Origin: Clostridia bacterium
GTDB taxonomy: Bacteria; Bacillota; Clostridia; Oscillospirales; Acutalibacteraceae
Length of the DNA: 44,207 nt
Direction of reading: 5' to 3'
Assembly (NCBI GenBank): GCA_017531385.1
Contig: JAFXLD010000044.1
Location: forward strand, 1 to 44,207
Part shown: piece after piece, positions 171 through 37,054 of the stretch
Layout of the letters: every line of letters starts with the position of its first letter
How positions within the stretch are numbered: the stretch's first letter is position 1
Translations under genes and position numbers: made by a program
Notes under the pieces: generated by a model
Seen by the model: only the letters and a program-made list of their open reading frames with translations
Told to the model about the DNA's origin: nothing
Databases searched by the model: none

Positions 171-689
171 TTATGGTTTTCTTGTTAATTTTTCTGCCTG
201 ACGAAGTACGGTGATAATCGGAACAATAAGCAATCCGCAGATAAAATTGCTGACAGCATGAATTACATCCCATGGAAGTCCTGCAACAATCCATGTCATT
301 GATGCCTTAAAATCAAGCCCGAATATCAATGCTTGTACAGGAGCATAAAGTATACCGTAAATCATTCCGTGCAACGCACAGACAGACATATAAACAACAG
401 GTGCGTTTTTTTTCGGCAGGTTTTTCGGAATAAGCATTGCCATGACCCAGAGAACAGTCCAGATGTAAAGATATGCTATCCACCATGTTGCAAAACCCGA
501 AAATAAACCTGTTACAAAAACAAAAATATATAACGGATACAGCGCTTTTTTTCTGTAAACAACCGTCGTCGCAACTATGAATACGCCTATAAGATGAATG
601 TTGGGCAGCAAATCCATCATAATCTTTGATGCGTACATCAGTGCTCCGAGCATACCGAAAATCGCAACTTCTTTTACATCAGGTTTCAT
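171..689 (-). CDS. ECF transporter S component (predicted cobalamin or cobalamin-precursor specificity)
   Basis: A 172-residue membrane protein with about five to six hydrophobic segments and few charged residues, the size of energy-coupling factor substrate-binding (S) subunits. An AxxxA motif (Ala16 to Ala20) sits in the first helix, where S components of this class pack against EcfT. No EcfA or EcfT gene is adjacent, so it would use a shared module encoded elsewhere (group II ECF). Its ATG overlaps the stop of the upstream lipoprotein gene by one base (TAATG), so translation is coupled, and the pair is transcribed behind a cobalamin riboswitch. Specificity for B12 or a precursor is inferred from that riboswitch and the DUF4430 partner, not from the protein itself. 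Relationship to the CblT or CbrT families is possible but not established here. Confidence 0.75.
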   Translation of the reverse strand: MKPDVKEVAIFGMLGALMYASKIMMDLLPNIHLIGVFIVATTVVYRKKALYPLYIFVFVTGLFSGFATWWIAYLYIWTVLWVMAMLIPKNLPKKNAPVVYMSVCALHGMIYGILYAPVQALIFGLDFKASMTWIVAGLPWDVIHAVSNFICGLLIVPIITVLRQAEKLTRKP

Positions 690-1171
690 TACTCAGCCTT
701 GAAAGAATATGTTGCACCTTCTGAAATATCGGTAATTTCAACACCAGAAGAAGCATACTCACCGTTTACATAAAACGCCCAGTATTTACCGTCTTTATCA
801 TAATCATAAGTTGCACCGTTTACGGTCTTTACATAAAGTCCGTAAGGACCTTCTTCACCCTGAATCAGATTCAGCTCAATAAGTGCATCACCGACTGTTT
901 TTTTGTCAGTACTGATTTTAAACTTTGTTTCTTTGCCGTTTATATCCGTTACGGTAAAGATAAACTCTGTTTCACCAACACCCAATTCACTGCTCTCTTC
1001 AGCAAGTACATTGCTTTCGTTCTCAGCTGTACTCTGAGTGTCTTGTGTGGTTCCCTCTTCGGGTTTTTCAATTGTGTTATCGTTACAACCTGTTGTAAAC
1101 AGTGCCATAGCCGCAATCAGCACAATACAAAGGAATAACGACAACGAGTTTTTAAATCGTGTCATTTTCAT
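689..1171 (-). CDS. DUF4430 (transcobalamin C-terminal-like) lipoprotein
   Basis: A 160-residue secreted lipoprotein. A Lys/Arg-containing N-terminus and hydrophobic stretch end in the lipobox LFTTGC (Cys at about residue 29), predicting a diacylglyceryl anchor on the outer face of the membrane. A Thr/Glu/Ser-rich linker of about 40 residues follows. Residues about 70-160 form one DUF4430 domain, with TVGDALIELNLI, the aromatic YGLYVKTVNG, and WAFYVNGEYA followed by the closing GATYSFKAE strand. DUF4430 is related to the C-terminal beta domain of animal transcobalamin and intrinsic factor. It is preceded by AAGGAG 9 bases from the ATG. It is the first gene after the cobalamin riboswitch and overlaps the S-component gene. 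I infer a cobalamin-capturing or S-component-docking partner; no solute-binding protein of the BtuF type is present. Confidence 0.8.
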   Translation of the reverse strand: MKMTRFKNSLSLFLCIVLIAAMALFTTGCNDNTIEKPEEGTTQDTQSTAENESNVLAEESSELGVGETEFIFTVTDINGKETKFKISTDKKTVGDALIELNLIQGEEGPYGLYVKTVNGATYDYDKDGKYWAFYVNGEYASSGVEITDISEGATYSFKAE

Positions 1172-1235
1172 GTTTGTATTCTCCTTAGATATTTTTATTA
1201 CCTCTTAACCGGCTCCCGCAGTTATATATCGAGGC

Positions 1236-1405
1236 TTTTGTCATCCAGATATTTCGACTTGGTGCAATCGTTTTCTGCCTTCTCAGAAAATTTCCAATGG
1301 CTTGTCCCCGATTTGCGGCACCGGATAAGAAAACGATTTTTATTGTTGCACCTCACGGCGACGGGCTCGTACAGGATTTTCACCTGTTTCCCTGCAATGA
1401 CAAAA
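1236..1405 (-). promoter_or_regulatory. Cobalamin (adenosylcobalamin-type) riboswitch
   Basis: The minus-strand leader holds the cobalamin aptamer core: GGGAA, then GGTGAAAATCC, then a C-rich segment matching the conserved receptor region, and near the 3' end CCAAGTCGAAATATCTGG, matching the conserved AAGUC...CUGCC block. A perfect 9-bp closing stem P1 pairs 1397-1405 with 1236-1244. GGTGCAA and TTGCACC form an inner stem. Downstream at about 1205-1235 a hairpin exposes GCGGG, which can pair with CCCGU in the aptamer, as in the kissing-loop interaction of this class. No U-tract terminator lies before the start codon, so translational control is more likely than attenuation. Apparent short open frames here are accidental. 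Confidence 0.93.
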
Positions 1406-1407
1406 AT

Positions 1408-1436
1408 ATTATAGCACATCACAAAAAAATATACAA
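1408..1436 (-). promoter_or_regulatory. Sigma-A-type promoter of the B12 operon
   Basis: -35 TTGTAT (1431-1436), 17-base spacer, consensus -10 TATAAT (1408-1413). Transcription would start near 1401, at the beginning of the cobalamin riboswitch P1 stem. Confidence 0.75.
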
Positions 1437-1489: not shown

Positions 1490-2203
1490 TTATTTAGTGA
1501 GCAATGGTTCAAGTTTTTTTATAACTTCCGAGTCGGCTGCCGGAATGTGAGAAAACGGAAAGTCAATCCCCATATCATCATATTTGACCTGGCAAATTTT
1601 TCTGAAAGGAAGAAGTTCCGTCTTGTCGATGCCGGAATATTTTTTCCTGAGTTCATTCAGGAAAATAACACTTTCTGCATTGTCATTGAGTGTGGGGATT
1701 ATGACCTGTCGCAATGTGACGGGGATATTCTGCTCATTGAGATAAGCAAGAAATTCAAGCGGCCTTGCAAGTGAACAACCGACATATTTACGGTAAGATT
1801 CATCATCAGCATACTTTATATCAAGAAGTACGCGGTCAGTTTCAGTCAAAAGTTTTTTCACATCGTAATTAAGGAGTGAACCTGAAGTGTCAAGACAGGT
1901 ATTGATGCCGTTTTTATGACAGAGTGTAAACAATTCATGTGCAAATTCACTCTGCAGAAGCGGTTCTCCGCCTGAAAGGGTTATGCCACCTTTATCGCCG
2001 AAATATTCACAAAAACGAAGAACCTTTGCGAGAACTTCATCTGCTGTGTATTCAGTTCCTGCTGACATTTCCCATGTATCGGGATTGTGACAACAACCAC
2101 ATCTGAGATTACACCCCTGCATAAAGACAACAAATCTTATTCCGGGACCATCAACAGTTCCAAGTGACTGAAATGAATGGATTCTGCCTTTTATATCACT
2201 CAT
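1490..2203 (-). CDS. pflA: Pyruvate formate-lyase activating enzyme
   Basis: A 237-residue radical S-adenosylmethionine enzyme that installs the glycyl radical on PflB. The iron-sulfur motif CxxxCxxC is Cys31, Cys35 and Cys38 ([14 protein letters not shown]), with an additional Cys37 where most PflA proteins have an aromatic residue. [10 protein letters not shown] further in is the conserved SAM-binding GGE segment. Length matches the family. The start codon overlaps the pflB stop by 4 bases (ATGA), so the two proteins are translationally coupled, and both depend on the ZTP-riboswitch promoter upstream of pflB. Cytoplasmic. Assignment is secure from sequence and context. Confidence 0.96.
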
Positions 2204-4431
2204 ATTGCTTCATGGAATGTTCTGCTGATGACTTCTCTCTGCTGTTCACGGGAAAGCTTATTGAAGTTAACGGCATAACCTGAAACTCTGATTGTAAGAT
2301 TGGGATATTTTTCGGGATTCTCATAAGCATCCATAAGTGTTTCACGATTAAGAACATTGATGTTGATATGGTGTGCTTTCTTTGAGAAATATCCGTCAAG
2401 AATTGTCACAAGATTTGTGATTCTTTCATCCTCTGACTTACCGAGAGCTTCGGGAGTGATTGAGAATGTGTTTGAAACACCGTCACGGCAGTCGTCATAG
2501 CTGATTTTTGCAACAGAATTTAGCGAAGCGAGAGCACCGTTCTTTTCTCTGTTGTGCATGGGGTTTGCACCGGGAGCAAAGGGTGCTGATGCTTTTCTGC
2601 CGTCAGGAGTAGCTCCCGTATTCTTGCCGTACATAACGTTTGATGTAATTGTAAGAACTGACAGTGTGTGCACAGCATCTCTGTAAGTGGGAGTTTTTCG
2701 AAGCTCTGTAATCACACGGTGAGCCATATCCTTTGCAATAAGGTCTACCCTGTCATCATCATTACCGTAAGTTGGGAAATCACCGACAGTATTGAAATCA
2801 ACGATAAATCCTTTGGAATCTTTGACAGGCTGAACATCGGCAAATTTAATTGCACTCAGTGAGTCAGCTACAACAGAAAGACCTGCAATACCAAAAGCCA
2901 TAAGTCGCTCTACATCCGTGTCGTGAAGTGCCATCTGAGTCTTTTCATAACAATATTTGTCATGCATGTAATGAATAATGTTCATTGTGTTTACATAAAG
3001 ACGGCTGAGCCACTGAATGTAAATATCGAAACGCTCCATAACTTTATCGAAATCAAGCTTGTCTGCATCCATAACATCCATCTGAGGACCGATGTGCATA
3101 CCGCTTGTTGTGTCGTAACCACCGTTGATTGCGATGAGAAGAAGCTTTGCAAGGTTACATCTTGCACCGAAAAACTGCATCTGCTTGCCGATTTTCATTG
3201 CCGATACACAGCATGCAATGGCATAGTCATCCCCATAGTGAGGACGCATGATATCGTCATTTTCATACTGAATAGAGTCTGTGTCTGCAGAAACTTTTGC
3301 ACAGAATCTCTTGAAGTTTTCGGGTAGTGCTGTTGACCAGAGAATTGTCAGGTTGGGTTCGGGTGATGAACCGAGTGTGTAAAGAGTATTGAGCATGCGG
3401 AAGCTTGACTTGGTGACAAGAGTTCTGCCGTCTTCACCCATTCCGCCCACTGCTTCTGTGATCCACATTGGGTCACCGCCGAAAAGCTCATTATATTCAG
3501 GTGTTCTCAGATGTCTTGCAATACGGAGCTTCATGACAAAATCGTCCATGAGCTCCTGTGCAGTTTCTTCCGTAAGAACACCGTTTTCAATATCTCTTTC
3601 AATATAAATATCAAAGAATGTGCTTACTCTGCCCAAAGACATTGCTGCACCGTTCTGCTCTTTGATTGCACCAAGATATGCAAAATAAGTCCACTGAATA
3701 GCTTCTCTTGCATTTTCTGCGGGTTTGCTGATGTCAAAGCCGTACATCTGAGCCATTTCCTTGAGTTTACCCATGAATGCAATCTGCTGGAAAAGTTCCT
3801 CATCAAGTCTTGTCTGATTTGCATCAAAAGTGCCGCCTGAGAGCGCATCTTTATCTTTTTTCTTTTCTTCAATAAGTCTGTCAACACCGTAAAGGGCAAC
3901 TCTTCTGTAGTCGCCGATGATTCTGCCTCTGCCGTAAGCATCGGGCAGACCTGTGATGACATGACACTTTCTTGCCATACGCATTTCGTCGGTATAAGCA
4001 CGGAAAACACCGTCATTATGAGTTGTACGGTAATGGAATTCTTCTTCGATTTTATCGCTGAGTTTATAGCCGTATGCTTCACAAGCCTGTCTTGCCATTC
4101 TGATACCGCCGAAAGGACATACACCCCTTTTGAGAGGTCTGTTTGTCTGCATTCCGACGATAATTTCGTTGTCTTTATCTATATAACCGGGTGAATAGCT
4201 TGTAAGTGAAGATACTGTTGCTGTGTCAATTTCAAGCACACCGCCAAACTGTCTTTCAAGAGCAAAAAGTCCCTGAATATTCTTCATGAGGTTCTGCGTT
4301 CTTTCTGTCGCACCTGCAAGAAATGAATCGTCACCCGTATATTCTTTATAATTAGTCTGAATGAAATCACGGACATTTATTTCATTTTTCCATGTTTCAC
4401 CTTTGAAGCCGTTCCAATTTTTGTGTTCCAT
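2200..4431 (-). CDS. pflB: Formate C-acetyltransferase (pyruvate formate-lyase)
   Basis: A 743-residue glycyl radical enzyme converting pyruvate and CoA to acetyl-CoA and formate. The adjacent catalytic cysteines are Cys407 and Cys408 in IACCVSAM, and the radical glycine is Gly718 in RVSGYAVNF near the C-terminus. The end ([17 protein letters not shown]) follows true PFL rather than glycerol dehydratase or choline lyase relatives. Start chosen at the ATG preceded by GGAGG. Its about 160-base leader contains a ZTP riboswitch and terminator, tying formate production, and hence formyl-tetrahydrofolate supply for purine synthesis, to accumulation of the AICAR phosphates ZMP and ZTP. Followed by coupled pflA. 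Confidence 0.98.
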
Positions 4432-4472: not shown

Positions 4473-4517
4473 AAAAAAAGGACAAATCAGCTTTAACAAA
4501 ATAAAACCAATTTGCCC
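4473..4517 (-). terminator. Riboswitch-controlled leader terminator upstream of pflB
   Basis: On the minus strand GGGCAAATTGG (4507-4517) pairs along its whole length, using G-U pairs, with CTGATTTGTCC (4480-4490), followed by seven U (4473-4479). Its first bases, GGGC, are also the last bases of the aptamer pseudoknot strand, so aptamer folding and termination compete. This is the arrangement expected of a transcriptional ON switch. Confidence 0.88.
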
Positions 4518-4592
4518 AGACGGTCGGCATTTCTATATTAAATAAGAACATTCCCCTGCGGTGAATCCGCATTATCCGTCAGTCGTGTCCTT
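4514..4592 (-). promoter_or_regulatory. ZTP riboswitch (pfl-motif RNA)
   Basis: Downstream of the promoter the RNA carries CACGACTGACGG, a GCGGATTCACCGC hairpin followed by AGGGGAA, an AU-rich linker, then CCGACCGTCTGGGC. The conserved features of the pfl motif are the CGACUGrCGg strand pairing with a 3' CCGyCUGGGC pseudoknot strand and an intervening small hairpin, and all are present in order. Known members bind ZMP/ZTP and act as ON switches for one-carbon and purine genes; pfl genes gave the motif its name. Placement directly before pflB and a terminator supports the call. Confidence 0.92.
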
Positions 4593-4600
4593 ACATGCTT

Positions 4601-29436: not shown

Positions 29437-31377
29437 TTACTCCACATCTTCAGGGATTCCACCCGTAAACTGACTATAATGAAGCATTGCATAGAAACCG
29501 TCCGCCTCAAGCAATTCCTTGTGAGTACCCTGTTCGACAATTGAACCGTGACGCATGACAATAATGTTATCTGCGTGCTTTATTGTTGAAAGTCTGTGAG
29601 CAATAACAAAGCTTGTTCTGCCTTTCATGAGCTCCTGCATAGCTTCCTGTATGAGCAACTCCGTTCTTGTATCAACAGAAGATGTGGCTTCATCAAGAAT
29701 AAGAATCTTAGGATTTTTAAGCAATGCTCTGGCAATGGTTATAAGCTGACGCTGTCCCTGTGAAATATTTGTACCGTCTTCTGTAAGTTCGGTATCATAG
29801 CCTTTGGGAAGCGACATGATATAGTCATGGATATTTGCTGATTTTGCGGCTGCCTCAATCTGTTCGTCAGTGGCATCATCAACACCATATCTGATATTTT
29901 CTTTTATAGTACCTTTGAAAAGCCATGTATCCTGAAGCACCATACCGAAATTATCTCTCAGGGCATTTCTTGACATTGTCATTATATCCGTTCCGTCTAT
30001 AAGGATCTGACCGCTCTGAATATCATAAAAACGCATAAGAAGATTTACGATTGTTGTTTTTCCGGCACCTGTGGGACCGACTATGGCTATAATACTGCCC
30101 GGATGTGCAGAAAGAGAGAAATCCTCAATAAGCGGAACATCTTCTTTATATTTGAATGAAACATTTTTAAATTCTACATTACCTTTAAGAAGACCTTCGG
30201 GCTCATTTTCTGTATTATCCGGTGTCTGTTCTTCTTCATCAAGAAGTTCAAAAACTCTCTCTGCAGAAGCAAGCGATGACTGAATGTTGTTTATCATTCT
30301 CGAAATGCTTGTGATGGGTGTTGAAAACATTGATGAATAAGAAAGGAATGCTTCAATTGATCCAAGACTCAGTGTATTGGTAATAGTTATTCCCGTATTG
30401 AACCAGCTTCCGATATAATAGCAGCCACCGATGATACAGACAGAAACATAGTTGACATTTTTACAAAATGTAAGAACAGGATTAAGCACACCTGCTATCA
30501 TATTGGCAACAAAGCTGTTTTTTCTCAGGTTATTATTGATTATTTTAAAATCTTCAACAGACTGCTTTTCATGATTGAAGATTTTAACAAGACTGTGCCC
30601 TGAAAACATTTCCTCAGCATGTCCGTTCATGGCACCCATTGATTTCCAATATTTAGAGAACCATTTTTTTGATATTTTTGCAACTTTATATGCAATTGTA
30701 CCGCTGAATGGTACAAGGAAAATTGCTGCGAAAGTCATTATCCAGTTGCCTGATTTCAGCATCATATAAAGAGCACCGACAACCTGAATAATTCCTGTAA
30801 GAACAGTAAGAAAGCTGTTCTGAAGATTCTGTGAAACATTATCAATATCATTGACAACTTTACTGATTATTTCACCTTTTGTATTCTTATCAAAATAGCT
30901 GAGCGGTAAATTTGAGAGTTTGACATTTACCTGTTGTCTGAGATTGAATACAAGTTTCTGTGTAACACCTGCACCCACAAACTGCTGTATAAAGCTCATA
31001 AAACCAATCATAAAATACACAGCACCAAGAGTCACAAGCTGATAAACTATAGATGTGGGATCGGCTATACTGCCGAAATTTATAGGAATGCCGTGCATTG
31101 CATAATTTTCAATAGCCTGCTGAATACTGTCGATAATATCAGCCATGTAATCAGGGGCAACAACACCTGCCAGTGTTGATATAATTGACGATACACATAC
31201 AACAGAAACACCGAACCAATAGGGTTTCAGAAGCATGAAAAATCTTGAAGCCGTTCCTTTTGCATTTGCAACCTTTTTATCATCGTCTTTATTACTGTTG
31301 TATGACGAATACTTGTTTTCAAGGTAGGTATCTTCGGATTTTAAAATATCTTTGAATTTCAGATCATTTTTACTCAT
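29437..31377 (-). CDS. Heterodimeric ABC exporter, canonical-site subunit (pair 2)
   Basis: A 646-residue half-transporter with an N-terminal six-helix type IV exporter domain and a C-terminal ATPase. Walker A is GPTGAGKTT, the signature is a non-canonical SQGQRQ, Walker B ends with the catalytic Glu in ILILDEATSSVDT, and the switch His follows in VIAHRLST. It overlaps the partner gene at 31374-33263 by 4 bases. Partner and order match TM287/288, LmrCD and BmrCD-type exporters, which move drugs, peptides or lipids; the substrate here is unknown. There is an unusually long polar N-terminal tail of about 45 residues before the first helix. Confidence 0.92.
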   Translation of the reverse strand: MSKNDLKFKDILKSEDTYLENKYSSYNSNKDDDKKVANAKGTASRFFMLLKPYWFGVSVVCVSSIISTLAGVVAPDYMADIIDSIQQAIENYAMHGIPINFGSIADPTSIVYQLVTLGAVYFMIGFMSFIQQFVGAGVTQKLVFNLRQQVNVKLSNLPLSYFDKNTKGEIISKVVNDIDNVSQNLQNSFLTVLTGIIQVVGALYMMLKSGNWIMTFAAIFLVPFSGTIAYKVAKISKKWFSKYWKSMGAMNGHAEEMFSGHSLVKIFNHEKQSVEDFKIINNNLRKNSFVANMIAGVLNPVLTFCKNVNYVSVCIIGGCYYIGSWFNTGITITNTLSLGSIEAFLSYSSMFSTPITSISRMINNIQSSLASAERVFELLDEEEQTPDNTENEPEGLLKGNVEFKNVSFKYKEDVPLIEDFSLSAHPGSIIAIVGPTGAGKTTIVNLLMRFYDIQSGQILIDGTDIMTMSRNALRDNFGMVLQDTWLFKGTIKENIRYGVDDATDEQIEAAAKSANIHDYIMSLPKGYDTELTEDGTNISQGQRQLITIARALLKNPKILILDEATSSVDTRTELLIQEAMQELMKGRTSFVIAHRLSTIKHADNIIVMRHGSIVEQGTHKELLEADGFYAMLHYSQFTGGIPEDVE

Positions 31378-33263
31378 ACTGCAGCCTCCTCTTCATCATC
31401 GGAAAGCTGAGAAGCAACTATACTTTTATATACTTCACAGTTTTCAAGCAGTTCTTCATGAGTACCTATTCCGACAGCTTTTCCCTCATCCATAACAATA
31501 ATTCTGTCAGCGTTGATTACTGTGCCCACACGCTGTGCAACAATAATTATATTTGCGTCGGGAAGATTTGCTCTGAGTGCAGCACGGAGTCTTGCATCAG
31601 TAGCAAGATCAAGAGCTGAAAAACTGTCGTCAAAGATATATATTTCAGCATTTTTGACAATAGCTCTTGCAATTGCAAGACGTTGTTTCTGGCCGCCCGA
31701 ATAGTTCTTGCCTGCCTGTGAAACAAAACTGTCGATTCCGTCTGCCATACTGCTGACAAAGGCTTTTGCCTGTGCAATTTCTATGGCTCTCCATACTTCA
31801 TCATCAGTTGCATCGGGATTTCCGAATTTAATATTTTCTTTTACTGTACCGCTGAAAAGATAGCTCTGCTGAGGAACATATGCAATTCTTGAATGAAGAT
31901 CTTCAAACGATAAATCTCTTACATCCACACCGTTTATAAGAATCTGACCTTCGGATACATCGTAAAGTCTGGGAATCAGATTGACGATTGTGGATTTTCC
32001 GCAACCCGTTACACCTATGATAGCAGTAATCTCACCCGGACGTGAAACAAAATTTATATCATAGATTGCATCTTTATCAACATTATTATCGTCAGGTTCT
32101 TCATCAGGAACAGTCTGTACTGTATCTTCTGTTTTATCTTTTTTCTTCTTTTTGCTGTCAGATGTAAGCCATCTGACAAACCATGATTTTTTCTTTTTGT
32201 CATCATCAACAGGCTTGTAGCGGAATGATACGTTTCTGAACTCAACAGTACCCCTGACATTTTCATCAGGTTTTACGGGATTTTCAGACTCCTGAATTTT
32301 AGGAACCGAATCAAGAATTTCATTGATACGCTTCGCTGAAACGGCAGCTCTCGGAAAACCGACAACAATACCCACTATTGCACCCAACGCACCGATGATA
32401 AGTGTAAAATATGTTATAAACATATACATATTGGGAATTGTTTCAAGCATCTGTTGCTGTGTAAGCCCCGGCTCCATAACATCAAGAACACTGACATAAA
32501 TGATATAGCAGATAAGAGAATACAGTGCCACTGTTATTACAGGTAAAAGGCTTGATATGATTCTTGTTGCACGAAGACTGATTTTAGTAAGCTTTGCATT
32601 ACTTTCATCAAATCGCTCATCTTCATAGTCTGTTTTATTGAATGCTCTTATAACTCTGATGCCACTTATTTTACCTCTAAGTATAAAGTTGAGTTTATCA
32701 AGAAGTTTCTGAACTTTTGAAAACATCGGCATTATAAAAATAAGCAATAAGATTGCAACAGCAATAAGTATCGGGATAATGATAAAAATAAGTCTGAGCA
32801 ATTTCTGATTGGTGGTATAAGCCATATAGAAACCGCCTATAAGCATAATCGGAATGGGAAGAATTGATTTGAGTGAATTAAGAATAACATCATGCACCTG
32901 ACGGACATCGTTGGTTGTTCTTGTCAGCATTGAAGAAACACCGATTTTATCCACATCACACTGAGAAAGATGTGCGATCTTTTCAAATACAATATTCCTT
33001 ATACCCATTGCATAATTTACAGAGGTCTTGGTTGAAAAATAAGTATTAAGAACGGATACGATACCACCAACAAGTGTCAGAAGCAACATTATTGCTCCGT
33101 AGTAGATGATATTTCCCATGTCTTTTGATATAATTCCTTCACTCAGAATATACTTTGTAAATATAGGAATTGCAATCTCAAGCACAGCATACAAAGCAGA
33201 AAACACGATTGATAAAATCAATGTTCCTCTGTAAGGCTTGAGCATTTTCAACATTTTTAACAT
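31374..33263 (-). CDS. Heterodimeric ABC exporter, degenerate-site subunit (pair 2)
   Basis: A 629-residue half-transporter. Walker A is GVTGCGKST and the signature SGGQKQR is canonical, but the Walker B catalytic residue is Asp (IYIFDDSFSALD) and the switch His is Gln (VAQRVGT). This marks the degenerate partner of an asymmetric pair. Within the ATPase, between the A-loop strand VSFRYKP and YDINFVSRPGE, there is an extra charged insert of about 55 residues with two Lys clusters and an acidic stretch. The N-terminus has three consecutive possible starts (MLKMLKMLKPYRG); the first is kept, following GGATGTG. Confidence 0.92.
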   Translation of the reverse strand: MLKMLKMLKPYRGTLILSIVFSALYAVLEIAIPIFTKYILSEGIISKDMGNIIYYGAIMLLLTLVGGIVSVLNTYFSTKTSVNYAMGIRNIVFEKIAHLSQCDVDKIGVSSMLTRTTNDVRQVHDVILNSLKSILPIPIMLIGGFYMAYTTNQKLLRLIFIIIPILIAVAILLLIFIMPMFSKVQKLLDKLNFILRGKISGIRVIRAFNKTDYEDERFDESNAKLTKISLRATRIISSLLPVITVALYSLICYIIYVSVLDVMEPGLTQQQMLETIPNMYMFITYFTLIIGALGAIVGIVVGFPRAAVSAKRINEILDSVPKIQESENPVKPDENVRGTVEFRNVSFRYKPVDDDKKKKSWFVRWLTSDSKKKKKDKTEDTVQTVPDEEPDDNNVDKDAIYDINFVSRPGEITAIIGVTGCGKSTIVNLIPRLYDVSEGQILINGVDVRDLSFEDLHSRIAYVPQQSYLFSGTVKENIKFGNPDATDDEVWRAIEIAQAKAFVSSMADGIDSFVSQAGKNYSGGQKQRLAIARAIVKNAEIYIFDDSFSALDLATDARLRAALRANLPDANIIIVAQRVGTVINADRIIVMDEGKAVGIGTHEELLENCEVYKSIVASQLSDDEEEAAV

Positions 33264-33316
33264 TTTTTCACATCCGTTGATAAATTAATAAAAAGCAACA
33301 TGCCATAATTATTTAA

Positions 33317-33345
33317 ATTATAACACATTGCTTTATATTATTCAA
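33317..33345 (-). promoter_or_regulatory. Internal promoter of exporter pair 2
   Basis: -35 TTGAAT (33340-33345), 17-base spacer, consensus -10 TATAAT (33317-33322), in the 88-base gap between the two exporter pairs. Confidence 0.75.
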
Positions 33346-33360
33346 GTATAATTATTCAAG
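33337..33360. repeat. Direct repeat over the -35 region between exporter pairs
   Basis: The 10-mer ATTATTCAAG occurs twice (33337-33346 and 33351-33360) with a 4-base spacer, the first copy containing the -35 box and the second spanning the preceding stop codon. A third partial TTCAA follows at 33361. It could be a binding site for a regulator. Confidence 0.5.
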
Positions 33361-35319
33361 TTCAAAAGTACCTGTGTAAAGCTGATAATATTTACCCTTT
33401 TCGGCAATAAGCTTTTCGTGGTTACCTCTTTCGATGATTCTGCCCTGTTCAAGAACCATGATAACATCGGAATTCTTGACAGTTGAAAGCCTGTGAGCAA
33501 TGACGAAAACAGTTCTGCCGTGCATAAGAGCATCCATACCGCGCTGCACAATTGCTTCCGTTCTTGTGTCGATTGATGATGTGGCTTCGTCAAGAATCAT
33601 TACGGGCGGGTCTGCAACTGCGGCACGTGCAATTGAAATGAGCTGTCGCTGTCCCTGTGAAAGTCCGCTGCCGTCACCCTCAAGAATTGTGTTATAACCG
33701 TCAGGCAACATTCTGATAAAACCGTCTGCATTTGCAAGTTTTGCCGCTGCAATACATTCTTCGTCAGTTGCATCAAGCTTGCCGTAACGGATATTATCCA
33801 TAACTGTACCCGTAAACAGGTTTACATCCTGCAGAACAATACCCATTGAGCGTCTGAGGTCTGCTTTTTTGATTTTATTGATATTTATGCCGTCATATCG
33901 GATTTTACCGTCTGCAATGTCATAAAATCTGTTAATAAGATTAGTTATGGTCGTCTTACCTGCACCTGTTGCGCCGACAAATGCAACTTTCTGACCGGGC
34001 TGGGCATAAAGAGAAACATTATGGAGAACGGTTTTGCCCTCAACATATGCAAAATCAACATCGTCAAGCACAATATCGCCTTTAAGAGGTGTGTATGTGA
34101 CCGTGCCGTCACCGTGGGGATGTTTCCATGCCCACTCACCTGTTCTTGTTTCACTTTCAGTAATATTTCCGTCTTTGTCTGTCCTGGCATTGACAAGTGT
34201 AACATATCCGTCATCAGTTTCGGGTGATTCATCAATCAGACTGAAAATTCTTTCTGCACCCGCCATAGCCATTGCAATTGCATTAATCTGCTGAGAAATA
34301 TGTGAAATCGGCATTACGAAATTTCTTGACATTGTAAGGAATGATGCAATAGCGCCGAGTGTTATCGGTTCATCTTCAAAACCGAAGAGCGTAAGATTTG
34401 TGACACCCTTTATGGCAAGTACACCGCCGAGAATTGCAAGAGCGACGTACAGAATATACCCCATATTGTTCATAATAGGACCGACAATATTACCGTAGGT
34501 ATTAGCTGTTGTCATATTGTGACAGAGTTCTTCGTTACGGGAATCAAATTCAGCCTTGTTTTTGTCTTCATGACAGAAAACCTTAACGACTTTCTGTCCG
34601 TTTATCATTTCTTCGATAAAACTGTTTACGGAAGCAACAGAACGCTGTTGTTTCACGAAGTATGATCCGCTTTTCTTACCTATAAAACCGATTATTCTTG
34701 TTATTGCAAACAGGAAAACAACCACAAAAAGAGTAAGCCATACACTCTGACGGAGCATTGAGAAAAAGATCGAAACAATTGTGACAAGTGATGACATTGC
34801 CTGAGGCACAGACTGCGCAATCATCTGTCTGAGAGCATCTGTATCATTTGTGTAGAAGCTCATTGTGTCGCCGAAATTGTGGGAGTCAAAATACTTTATG
34901 GGAAGAGTCTGCATATGTGCAAACATTCTGTCACGGATTTTCTTGAGAATACCCTGTGAAACATTTGCCATAATACGATTATAGAGCAAACCTGCAAGAG
35001 CACCACAGATATACAGACAACCGATTTTACAAAGAGCAACAAAAAGGTCTGTGAATGTAACCGATGAATTCGGCAACAACATCGGAGTTATGTAATCATC
35101 AATCAGTGTTTCAAGGAAAAGTGATGATGCAACACTTGCAACAGCACTGAGAATGATGAAAAACATAACAAAGATAAGATGAAACTTATATTTACCGAAG
35201 TAGCCGAAAAGTCTTTTTACGGTATCTTTGTTGATTTTAACATCGGGTTTTCCAACCATTCCGCCTCGTCTTCCCGGACCGCCCATAGGTGGCATCTGAC
35301 GTGTTTTTTCCTCAGCCAT
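33352..35319 (-). CDS. Heterodimeric ABC exporter, canonical-site subunit (pair 1)
   Basis: A 655-residue half-transporter. A Pro/Gly-rich N-terminal tail (MPPMGGPGRRGGM) precedes six membrane helices. The ATPase has Walker A GATGAGKTT, signature SQGQRQL, Walker B VMILDEATSSIDT with catalytic Glu, and switch VIAHRLST. Between the membrane and ATPase domains is an insert of about 45 residues (GEWAWKHPHGDGTVTYT segment) seen in a subgroup of clostridial exporters. It overlaps the upstream partner by 8 bases. Function as a drug, peptide or lipid exporter is inferred from the family. Confidence 0.92.
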   Translation of the reverse strand: MAEEKTRQMPPMGGPGRRGGMVGKPDVKINKDTVKRLFGYFGKYKFHLIFVMFFIILSAVASVASSLFLETLIDDYITPMLLPNSSVTFTDLFVALCKIGCLYICGALAGLLYNRIMANVSQGILKKIRDRMFAHMQTLPIKYFDSHNFGDTMSFYTNDTDALRQMIAQSVPQAMSSLVTIVSIFFSMLRQSVWLTLFVVVFLFAITRIIGFIGKKSGSYFVKQQRSVASVNSFIEEMINGQKVVKVFCHEDKNKAEFDSRNEELCHNMTTANTYGNIVGPIMNNMGYILYVALAILGGVLAIKGVTNLTLFGFEDEPITLGAIASFLTMSRNFVMPISHISQQINAIAMAMAGAERIFSLIDESPETDDGYVTLVNARTDKDGNITESETRTGEWAWKHPHGDGTVTYTPLKGDIVLDDVDFAYVEGKTVLHNVSLYAQPGQKVAFVGATGAGKTTITNLINRFYDIADGKIRYDGININKIKKADLRRSMGIVLQDVNLFTGTVMDNIRYGKLDATDEECIAAAKLANADGFIRMLPDGYNTILEGDGSGLSQGQRQLISIARAAVADPPVMILDEATSSIDTRTEAIVQRGMDALMHGRTVFVIAHRLSTVKNSDVIMVLEQGRIIERGNHEKLIAEKGKYYQLYTGTFELE

Positions 35320-37054
35320 TGTCGTCTCCTCCCTTCACTTGTGATTCATATACTTCTCTGTAAATACTGCTTGTTTTCAGCAATTCATCGTGATCCCCCA
35401 CAGCGGAAATCCTGCCGTCGTCAAGAACGATGATTCTGTCTGCATCCTGAACGGATGAAACACGCTGAGCAATGATAATTTTTGTGGTTTCGGGGATTTC
35501 TTCCCTGAACGCTTTTCTGATTTTTGAATCTGTAGCGGTATCAACTGCACTTGTTGAATCGTCAAGAATAAGGATTTTGGGTTTTTTGAGAAGCGCACGG
35601 GCAATACAAAGTCTCTGCTTCTGACCGCCTGATACATTTGCACCGCCCTGTTCGATATATGTATCATACTTATCGGGAAATTTTTCAACAAATTCATCTG
35701 CACAGGCAAGTTTACAGGCATTTATGATTTCTTCGTCCGTTGCATCATCCTTGCCCCAACGGAGATTCTCTTTGATTGTACCTGAGAACAGGACATTTTT
35801 CTGAAGCACCATTGCAACTTCGTTTCTCAGTGCCTCAATAGAATAATCACGGACATCAGTTCCGCCGACTTTTACACAGCCGTTTCTGACATCGTAGAGT
35901 CTCGGAATCAGCTGAACAAAGGTTGATTTAGATGAACCCGTACCGCCGATAATGCCTATTGTTTCGCCTGATGCGATTGAAATATTGATATTGTCAAGGC
36001 AGAGTTTATCTGCATTCTTTGAATATGAAAAATCAACATTCTCGAAGACAATTGAGCCGTCTTTTACTGTTGTTTCTGCGTTTTCTTTTTCTGTTATGTC
36101 GCTTTTTTCATCAAGGACTTCAACAATTCTTTCAGCACTTGCCTTTGACATGGTCATCATAACGAAAATCATTGAAAGGAACATAAGGCTGTTAAGAAGT
36201 TGTGCTGTGTATGTAAACAAGCTCATCAGTTCACCCGTTGTAAGCTCAGTTGCACCTGTATCAACAATAAGCTTTGCTCCGAACCATGAAATGAGCATCA
36301 TACATGTGTAAACACTCATCTGCATAAGCGGAGCATTGAATGCGATTGTTTTTTCTGCTTTTACAAAGTCGTTATAAATACTGCTTGAAATTTCCTGAAA
36401 TTTATCTGTTTCAAAACCTTGTCTGTTGAATGATTTAACAACACGAATGCCTCTGACATTTTCTTCAACGATACCGTTGAGCTTATCGTATGTCTTGAAT
36501 ACTCTTTTGAACAAAGGATGTGCTTTTCTGATGATAAGAAACATTCCGAGCATCAGAAACGGAACGACACACAGGAAAACAGAAGCCAGTTTTGCATTGA
36601 TTCCGTATGCAAAAATAAAGCTAAAGATAAACATCATAGGGCTTCTTACAGCCATTCTGATAATCATCATAAATGACTGCTGAACATTATTAACATCGGT
36701 TGTAAGCCTTGTAACAAGACTTGCCGTTGAGAATTTATCAATATTTGAGAAGGCATAATTCTGCACACTGTAGAACATATCGTGTCTGAGATTTTTTGCA
36801 AATCCTGCACTTGCAACAGCACATGTTCTGCCTGCAACACCGCCGAAAAACATTGAAATGACTGCACACACAAGAAGTGCAACACCCATTTTAAGCACAA
36901 AATTCATACTTCCGGCATTTATGCCGTTATCAATAAGACTTGCCATAAGCAGAGGGATAACCACTTCCATGACAACCTCGCCTATAACAAATACTGGGGT
37001 CATTATGGCTGATTTTTTATATTCACGCACACATTTTGCCAATCTTTTTATCAT
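35312..37054 (-). CDS. Heterodimeric ABC exporter, degenerate-site subunit (pair 1)
   Basis: A 580-residue half-transporter, first gene of the exporter operon. The ATPase has an atypical Walker A (GGTGSSKST, with Ser replacing the usual Gly before Lys), canonical signature SGGQKQR, Walker B ending in Asp (ILILDDSTSAVDT) and Gln in the switch position (IAQRVSS). These mark the non-hydrolysing site of an asymmetric heterodimer. The start is the ATG after AGAGAGGC. Order (degenerate then canonical) is repeated by pair 2, implying duplication of a two-gene unit. Confidence 0.92.
   Translation of the reverse strand: MIKRLAKCVREYKKSAIMTPVFVIGEVVMEVVIPLLMASLIDNGINAGSMNFVLKMGVALLVCAVISMFFGGVAGRTCAVASAGFAKNLRHDMFYSVQNYAFSNIDKFSTASLVTRLTTDVNNVQQSFMMIIRMAVRSPMMFIFSFIFAYGINAKLASVFLCVVPFLMLGMFLIIRKAHPLFKRVFKTYDKLNGIVEENVRGIRVVKSFNRQGFETDKFQEISSSIYNDFVKAEKTIAFNAPLMQMSVYTCMMLISWFGAKLIVDTGATELTTGELMSLFTYTAQLLNSLMFLSMIFVMMTMSKASAERIVEVLDEKSDITEKENAETTVKDGSIVFENVDFSYSKNADKLCLDNINISIASGETIGIIGGTGSSKSTFVQLIPRLYDVRNGCVKVGGTDVRDYSIEALRNEVAMVLQKNVLFSGTIKENLRWGKDDATDEEIINACKLACADEFVEKFPDKYDTYIEQGGANVSGGQKQRLCIARALLKKPKILILDDSTSAVDTATDSKIRKAFREEIPETTKIIIAQRVSSVQDADRIIVLDDGRISAVGDHDELLKTSSIYREVYESQVKGGDDNG

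Follow-up and report, generated by a model that had tools for sequence, protein, structure and literature searches.

A candidate vitamin B12 uptake operon with a cobalamin riboswitch, a DUF4430 lipoprotein and a CbrT-type S component in a Clostridia bacterium

What does a cobalamin riboswitch control when the genes behind it encode a small lipoprotein and a membrane protein of no obvious family? The question is raised by contig JAFXLD010000044.1 (assembly GCA_017531385.1) of a Clostridia bacterium of the Acutalibacteraceae, whose 44,207 nucleotides were analyzed at full length and are called the window below. The feature lies within the first 1.5 kb on the minus strand, in the order cobalamin riboswitch, gene for a lipoprotein with a DUF4430 domain, and membrane-protein gene. 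An earlier reading of the letters, made without database searches and called here the sequence-only reading, had seen in it a B12 uptake route through an energy-coupling factor (ECF) transporter. Our analysis suggests that the locus is a cobalamin-regulated uptake operon for B12 (cobamide), in which the lipoprotein would capture the ligand and pass it to the membrane protein, an S component, for ECF import. We put the probability of this reading, of which binding and hand-over are predicted steps, at about three in four.

The riboswitch and the two proteins

An Rfam scan identified the cobalamin riboswitch aptamer (RF00174) at positions 1227–1436 (-), with 45.9 bits against a gathering threshold of 31.5 (E 1.8e-8), in agreement with the sequence-only reading. 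A P1 stem had also been proposed from the letters. This helix, with approximate arms at 1392–1406 (-, 5' arm) and 1235–1248 (-, 3' arm), has 14 pairs, two of them G-U, and one bulged base, and it includes nine consecutive Watson-Crick pairs (UUUUGUCAU/AUGACAAAA) that can be read directly from the sequence; the Rfam alignment sets P1 at another place. The stem closing the riboswitch is supported by covariation. Duplex energies were computed per sequence for 20 aligned riboswitches including the window (alignment A6, which excludes a partial match, L018, and a riboswitch of another class, L033), and their sum was -229.8 kcal/mol within sequences and -125.8 +/- 11.7 kcal/mol with the arms swapped; none of 500 between-sequence permutations was as low. 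The fold of the whole leader is unexceptional (z -1.19). An intrinsic terminator was rejected as the expression platform, the hairpin scan listing none on the minus strand between aptamer and start codon. The aptamer is predicted to bind cobalamin and thereby to switch expression.

The first gene (689–1171, -) encodes a lipoprotein of 160 amino acids, a putative corrinoid capture protein, in which Pfam shows DUF4430 (PF14478, 713–901, -; 34.7 bits against a cut-off of 23.8) and no other domain. Its lipobox cysteine, Cys29, is invariant across all 28 aligned lipoproteins, the window included. The AlphaFold model has a mean predicted local distance difference test score (pLDDT) of 81.8, and residues 61–160 reach 96–99 per block. 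Foldseek searches with this model yielded 19 PDB chains at E <= 1e-3, rank 20 following down at E 0.06. Two of these chains belong to 3u7z and the other 17 to haptocorrin, intrinsic factor and transcobalamin; the isolated beta domain of transcobalamin is among them both free of ligand (5no0) and with cyanocobalamin (5np4). The modeled domain is thus predicted to have the beta-domain fold of these B12 carriers, as the sequence-only reading, which linked DUF4430 to the C-terminal domain of transcobalamin and intrinsic factor, had led one to expect.

A relationship at the level of sequence was found one step removed. A profile built from DUF4430 partners in other lineages (21 sequences) matched haptocorrin at E 1e-6; with the same profile, intrinsic factor and transcobalamin fell at E 0.06–1.4, which is not significant, and unrelated chains scored alike. 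The profiles of the window family and of these other lineages match each other at E 2.9e-26. In passages of PMC4350170, DUF4430 is placed at the C-terminus of transcobalamins. The solved bacterial member of the family, 3u7z (RUMGNA_00854 of Ruminococcus gnavus), has the same domain as the window lipoprotein (sequence E 3.4e-18, fold E 3.3e-9); it was deposited as a putative metal-binding protein, unlike the corrinoid role that we propose.

The window lipoprotein differs from the transcobalamin-type carriers in being a lipoprotein with the beta-like domain alone. We rejected the idea that it is a complete transcobalamin, as the alpha6-alpha6 barrel was not found and DUF4430 is the only domain detected in its 160 residues. 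It is nevertheless reasonable that a lone DUF4430 domain could hold a corrinoid, because the isolated beta domain of transcobalamin has been solved with cyanocobalamin.

The second gene (171–689, -) encodes a membrane protein of 172 amino acids for which neither Pfam nor NCBIfam gave a match at E <= 1. With a profile built from 30 sequences (A1), a single PDB match was obtained at E <= 1, 6fnp_A (E 1.1e-8), covering profile positions 4–168 of 171, that is, nearly the full length. A narrower profile reached the same chain at E 9.1e-6, the next PDB match being an unrelated protein at E 0.55. Structure 6FNP is ECF-CbrT of Lactobacillus delbrueckii, which imports cobalamin and cobinamide at the expense of ATP (passages of Santos et al. 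2018, PMC5997447); from the length of chain A (182) and this source, we infer that the chain is CbrT. The AlphaFold model of the window protein (pLDDT 87.7) has five long predicted helices, and its best PDB match in Foldseek was another S component, RibU, at E 0.3 and a template modeling score of 0.60. As this structural support is weak, the assignment rests mainly on the profile match, which supports a distant relative of CbrT and narrows the ECF S component of the sequence-only reading to a CbrT-type one. The protein is predicted to transport cobalamin together with EcfT and ATPases. The L. delbrueckii system is related to the window S component by profile, shares its cobalamin context and is distant from it in sequence.

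Remoter relatives of the S component are fusions to a double ATPase. The fused domain of one of them (L217) also matches the S-component families PF07155 (E 8e-11) and PF12822 (E 3.4e-10), and aligns with the window S family at E 7.4e-5 with a probability of 62%. An S component for another vitamin was considered and rejected: Rfam scans of relatives' loci showed no other vitamin-type riboswitch, and 6FNP chain A was the sole PDB match at E <= 1.

The stop codon of the lipoprotein gene and the start of the S gene share one base (TAATG). The sequence-only reading had noted this coupling and taken it as support for a physical partnership; the coupling is there, whereas a gene overlap is no proof of contact between the products.

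Conservation and surroundings of the gene pair

To follow the pair in close relatives, we searched 200 genomes of the window's family and read the 30 best loci, including the window itself. An S-component match at E <= 1e-3 was present in 85 of the 200 genomes, the own genome included, the lower-ranked matches being distant or fused. After two loci at contig ends (L034 and L036) were set aside, the DUF4430 gene was found to precede the S gene in all 28 assessable loci, the window included, and a cobalamin-class riboswitch match lies ahead of every one of these pairs (22 above and six below the Rfam gathering threshold).

The same order was seen in a named genome collection (genome_contigs), in which at least 591 stretches, not necessarily from distinct genomes, encode relatives of the S component. 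Among the best 80 of these, 79 were assessable (L052 has only 8 bases upstream). The S gene follows a DUF4430 gene in 78 of them; a script detected 77 of these, one was recognized by eye, and Pfam confirmed all 78. Gaps between the two genes range from -4 to +5 bases in 73 of the 77 script-found pairs. Alignments A3 (60 rows) and A4 (58 rows) were built from part of the 80 loci and the window, A4 excluding L070 (whose coordinates held a stop), L106 and L112. Pooling of the two sets, which share four loci, gives the DUF4430-S order in 102 of 103 distinct loci, the window among them. RF00174 was detected ahead of the pair in 22 of the 32 loci of the collection that were scanned (14/20 and 8/12), more than 350 bases upstream in L078 and L087. 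The sequence-only reading had named homologues behind other vitamin riboswitches as evidence that would speak against it; Rfam scans of the relatives' loci revealed none.

More distant relatives show the pair less uniformly. It occurs in seven of eight distant, unfused loci of the family (L123–L130), all seven DUF4430 genes being confirmed by Pfam, and RF00174 was found in three of the six scanned (present in L124, L125 and L126, not detected in L127, L129 and L130; L123, L128 and L131 lay outside the Rfam scans). When 398 genomes of the phylum were searched, 11 of the 14 best loci outside the own genome (L133–L146) have a DUF4430 gene, nine confirmed by Pfam directly or through the refetched gene and two by eye (L133 and L139). 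Among 299 Bacilli genomes, the 20 listed loci that come closest to L. delbrueckii CbrT include 15 with an adjacent DUF4430 gene; two of these loci also belong to the phylum set. All 12 DUF4430 genes tested match Pfam, and the copy in L170 lies downstream. A PduO-like gene stands alongside in four of these 20 loci (the one checked matches PF01923 at E 3.6e-54). No match to L. delbrueckii CbrT above 48% identity was obtained in the Bacilli search.

These DUF4430-S-PduO neighborhoods of Bacilli resemble the L. delbrueckii cluster nrdJ-cbrS-cbrT-pduO described in passages of PMC5997447. By this analogy CbrS, whose nature the passages leave unstated, may be a DUF4430 protein. The words riboswitch and lipoprotein do not occur in the main text of that paper.

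Two neighborhoods read by eye deserve mention. In L130 (7370–11272), the CbrT-like gene is divergent from metF-like and metH-like genes, a B12 context. In L137–L139 and L142, the DUF4430 and S genes lie beside genes for biotin-dependent-decarboxylase-like subunits, possibly a methylmalonyl-CoA (B12) context.

Within the window, an AAGGAG motif resembling a ribosome-binding site (1181–1186, -) stands ahead of the lipoprotein start. A terminator-like hairpin with a U run (AGTCCAG-loop-CTGGGCT followed by Ts; 97–127, -) lies 3' of the S gene; the pattern scan lists a hairpin at this place for the plus strand only, and the minus-strand hairpin was read by eye. The riboswitch is preceded by a gene for a radical S-adenosylmethionine (SAM) protein and, ahead of that, by a pyruvate-formate-lyase-type gene (Pfam); therefore, the riboswitch probably begins a transcription unit of its own. 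Apart from the cobalamin riboswitch, Rfam gave one match above gathering in the window, a ZMP-ZTP riboswitch (61.6 bits, 4507–4596, -) ahead of the pyruvate-formate-lyase-type gene (2200–4431). Farther away, at 29437–37054 (-), four consecutive genes resemble half-transporters of ATP-binding cassette (ABC) exporters by eye.

Proposed mechanism and alternatives

We examined whether the own genome, which is 83% complete, has a need for imported B12. Six B12-binding domains were found, five of them over the cut-off; the best is found together with homocysteine S-methyltransferase and pterin-binding domains in a single protein, a MetH-type methionine synthase. No match was obtained in this genome for the FecCD permease or for CobS, which were detected in 13 and 10 of 14 control genomes, respectively. 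Two EcfT genes are present, one on contig C3 and the other in a second operon described below. With MetH present and both CobS and FecCD unmatched, the organism appears to use B12 without completing it by the usual route and without BtuCD, and the pair and the ECF parts appear, provisionally, to be there to serve this need. A BtuFCD-type system was rejected for want of a FecCD match in this incomplete genome, which is consistent with the claim of the sequence-only reading that the route works without BtuFCD.

On this basis, the following scheme may be proposed. When intracellular cobalamin is low, the riboswitch would permit expression of both genes, and plentiful cobalamin would shut them off. 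The lipoprotein, on the outer face of the membrane, would capture cobalamin, related cobamides or cobinamide through its DUF4430 domain and hand the ligand to the CbrT-type S component. The latter would then dock on a shared ECF module, whose EcfT and ATPases are probably encoded elsewhere in the genome, topple, and free the ligand inside in an ATP-driven step. Such a scheme would join a binding protein to a B12 importer, as BtuFCD does, and differs from BtuFCD in the unmatched FecCD and in a lipoprotein that Pfam matches to DUF4430 only. It would also work like BtuG of Bacteroides, a surface lipoprotein that catches B12 for a transporter (passages of PMC6143338). BtuG acts at the outer membrane of Gram-negative bacteria, has BtuB as its partner and binds with femtomolar affinity according to the same passages.

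Several observations weigh against this scheme. The structure 6fnp is absent from the top 50 Foldseek rows for the S-component model, and the best match, RibU, is weak. The profile of the window's lipoprotein family does not reach the transcobalamin-type carriers by sequence at E <= 10. The ligand of transcobalamin sits between an alpha and a beta domain, whereas the window lipoprotein has the beta-like domain alone. The six riboswitch matches below gathering, although at the same place as the others, have E values of 0.0007–0.05 under permissive filters. Ten of the 32 scanned loci of the genome collection lack RF00174 before the pair, Roseburia inulinivorans (L104) among them; three of the ten are short of upstream DNA. 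L048, the sole exception among the 79, has no DUF4430 neighbor, nor do L130 and five of the 20 Bacilli loci. Finally, the incompleteness of the own genome makes its absences provisional.

In the main alternative, the S component would import cobalamin alone, the lipoprotein being, for example, a docking or assembly partner or a binder of some other molecule. In favor of this, ECF-CbrT of L. delbrueckii was active in proteoliposomes as a purified complex, so that no lipoprotein is strictly needed (passages of PMC5997447). The loci just named without a DUF4430 neighbor and the deposition of 3u7z as a putative metal-binding protein fit this explanation too. On the other hand, the only fold neighbors of the lipoprotein at E <= 1e-3 apart from DUF4430 proteins are B12 carriers, and CbrT-type genes of several lineages have DUF4430 genes beside them, often with a cobalamin riboswitch in control. 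We regard an S component acting alone as unlikely, though deserving of serious attention.

The cargo could also be a corrinoid precursor or a lower-ligand fragment (cobinamide, alpha-ribazole or dimethylbenzimidazole) and not complete cobalamins. Cobalamin riboswitches are known to control precursor salvage as well, and the own genome has two loci of B12 type, the window pair and the second operon, which could split substrates between them. CbrT itself accepts cobinamide (passages of PMC5997447). The missing CobS match, however, would leave cobinamide or alpha-ribazole without the usual route of completion, and the beta-domain fold of the lipoprotein points to a whole corrinoid, which makes a precursor cargo rather improbable. 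That the genes are chance neighbors with no joint function, the riboswitch governing something else, hardly deserves belief: gene order alone never proves function, but an order kept in 28/28 and 78/79 assessable loci (four shared) from many genera, with a cobalamin-class riboswitch upstream in most of the scanned loci, led us to reject it.

Toroid and cohesin proteins in related operons

The uptake operon proposed for the window has a larger counterpart in the same genome. A second cobalamin riboswitch (78.4 bits) and a second DUF4430 gene lie on two short contigs, C75 and C21 (L005 and L006), whose ends overlap by exactly 141 bases. The order is riboswitch, small open reading frame (ORF), toroid-dockerin gene, cohesin gene, DUF4430 lipoprotein gene, EcfT and a double-ATPase gene cut short by the contig end. 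The toroid-dockerin protein (925 amino acids) is secreted and matches Prenyltrans (E 2.7e-4) and dockerin (E 1.3e-4), both below the Pfam cut-off; the cohesin protein is membrane-anchored and over the cut-off (E 9.1e-9). It is unusual for an operon of vitamin uptake to encode a cohesin-dockerin pair. Small ORFs that separate the cobalamin riboswitch from the toroid gene (L005:1322–1657 and L222:7424–7699) contain a homing-endonuclease-associated repeat (PF18780).

Two relatives have comparable operons. In G177 (L217), a riboswitch of 78.7 bits is followed within a single stretch by toroid-dockerin, cohesin, DUF4430, EcfT and an ATPase-S fusion, and G008 (L117 and L218; riboswitch 76.6 bits) has the same order with a weak cohesin match (E 0.009). 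Cohesin relatives were detected in four of the 200 family genomes, including the own genome and one weak case, and toroid-dockerin matches in 48 of 150 genomes, many of the weaker ones covering the dockerin alone. Other toroid proteins have an LPXTG-like end (L119, a weak Pfam match at E 0.048, and L219, by eye) or S-layer homology (SLH) domains (L141 and L159). In L222, DUF4430 (E 1.2e-6) and the toroid (E 6e-5, below cut-off) are joined in one chain. L053 (2828–5960) has a pair of cobalamin riboswitches (41.2 and 119.3 bits), separated by about 560 bases and followed by consecutive genes for the toroid protein (E 7e-5, below cut-off), the DUF4430 lipoprotein and the CbrT-like S component. 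A cobalamin riboswitch thus falls within the stretch read for several, not all, toroid/DUF4430 operons; the stretches of L118–L121, L132, L219–L221 and L223, some of which end at contig ends, gave no RF00174 match above gathering. In L120 (3155–3652), a cobalamin adenosyltransferase gene (PF02572, E 1.1e-44) adjoins a double-ATPase-S fusion of the toroid/DUF4430 type.

The toroid is a fold class that we take to be that of the alpha domain of transcobalamin, so that such operons would hold counterparts of both carrier domains. By sequence, the profile of the toroid proteins finds squalene-hopene cyclases (E 4e-15) and no transcobalamin; the likeness to the alpha domain is therefore one of fold class only. 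We tentatively suggest, at somewhat less than even odds, that Firmicutes have a split transcobalamin, in which an alpha-alpha toroid protein and a lipoprotein with the DUF4430 beta domain would hold B12 between them, next to an ECF importer; the window pair would be a reduced version that has only the beta half. The toroid would be tethered by its LPXTG-like end, by SLH domains or, in the own genome and the two relatives, by dockerin-cohesin pairing.

Import of B12 by ECF transporters is known; what seems new, a prior description being possible, is the pairing of a capture lipoprotein with a CbrT-type S component under a riboswitch. Titles and abstract openings in the literature searched, which excluded most subscription papers and all preprints, gave no description of this pairing, and passages of PMC2667541, PMC5997447, PMC6593275, PMC7478625, PMC11477304, PMC7299338 and PMC6143338 do not describe it.

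The conserved pair suggests a widespread, little-studied way for gut-type bacteria to catch B12, and it offers a concrete candidate that can be tested with two small proteins. The pair further points to a function for DUF4430, the family of the bacterial structure deposited as a putative metal-binding protein, and makes one ask how the beta domain of human B12 carriers relates to that family. The wider toroid and cohesin architecture would be more surprising if verified: a bacterial capture system would then have the same two-domain plan as the vertebrate B12 carriers, and cohesin-dockerin pairing would be used for taking up a vitamin, not for digesting fiber.

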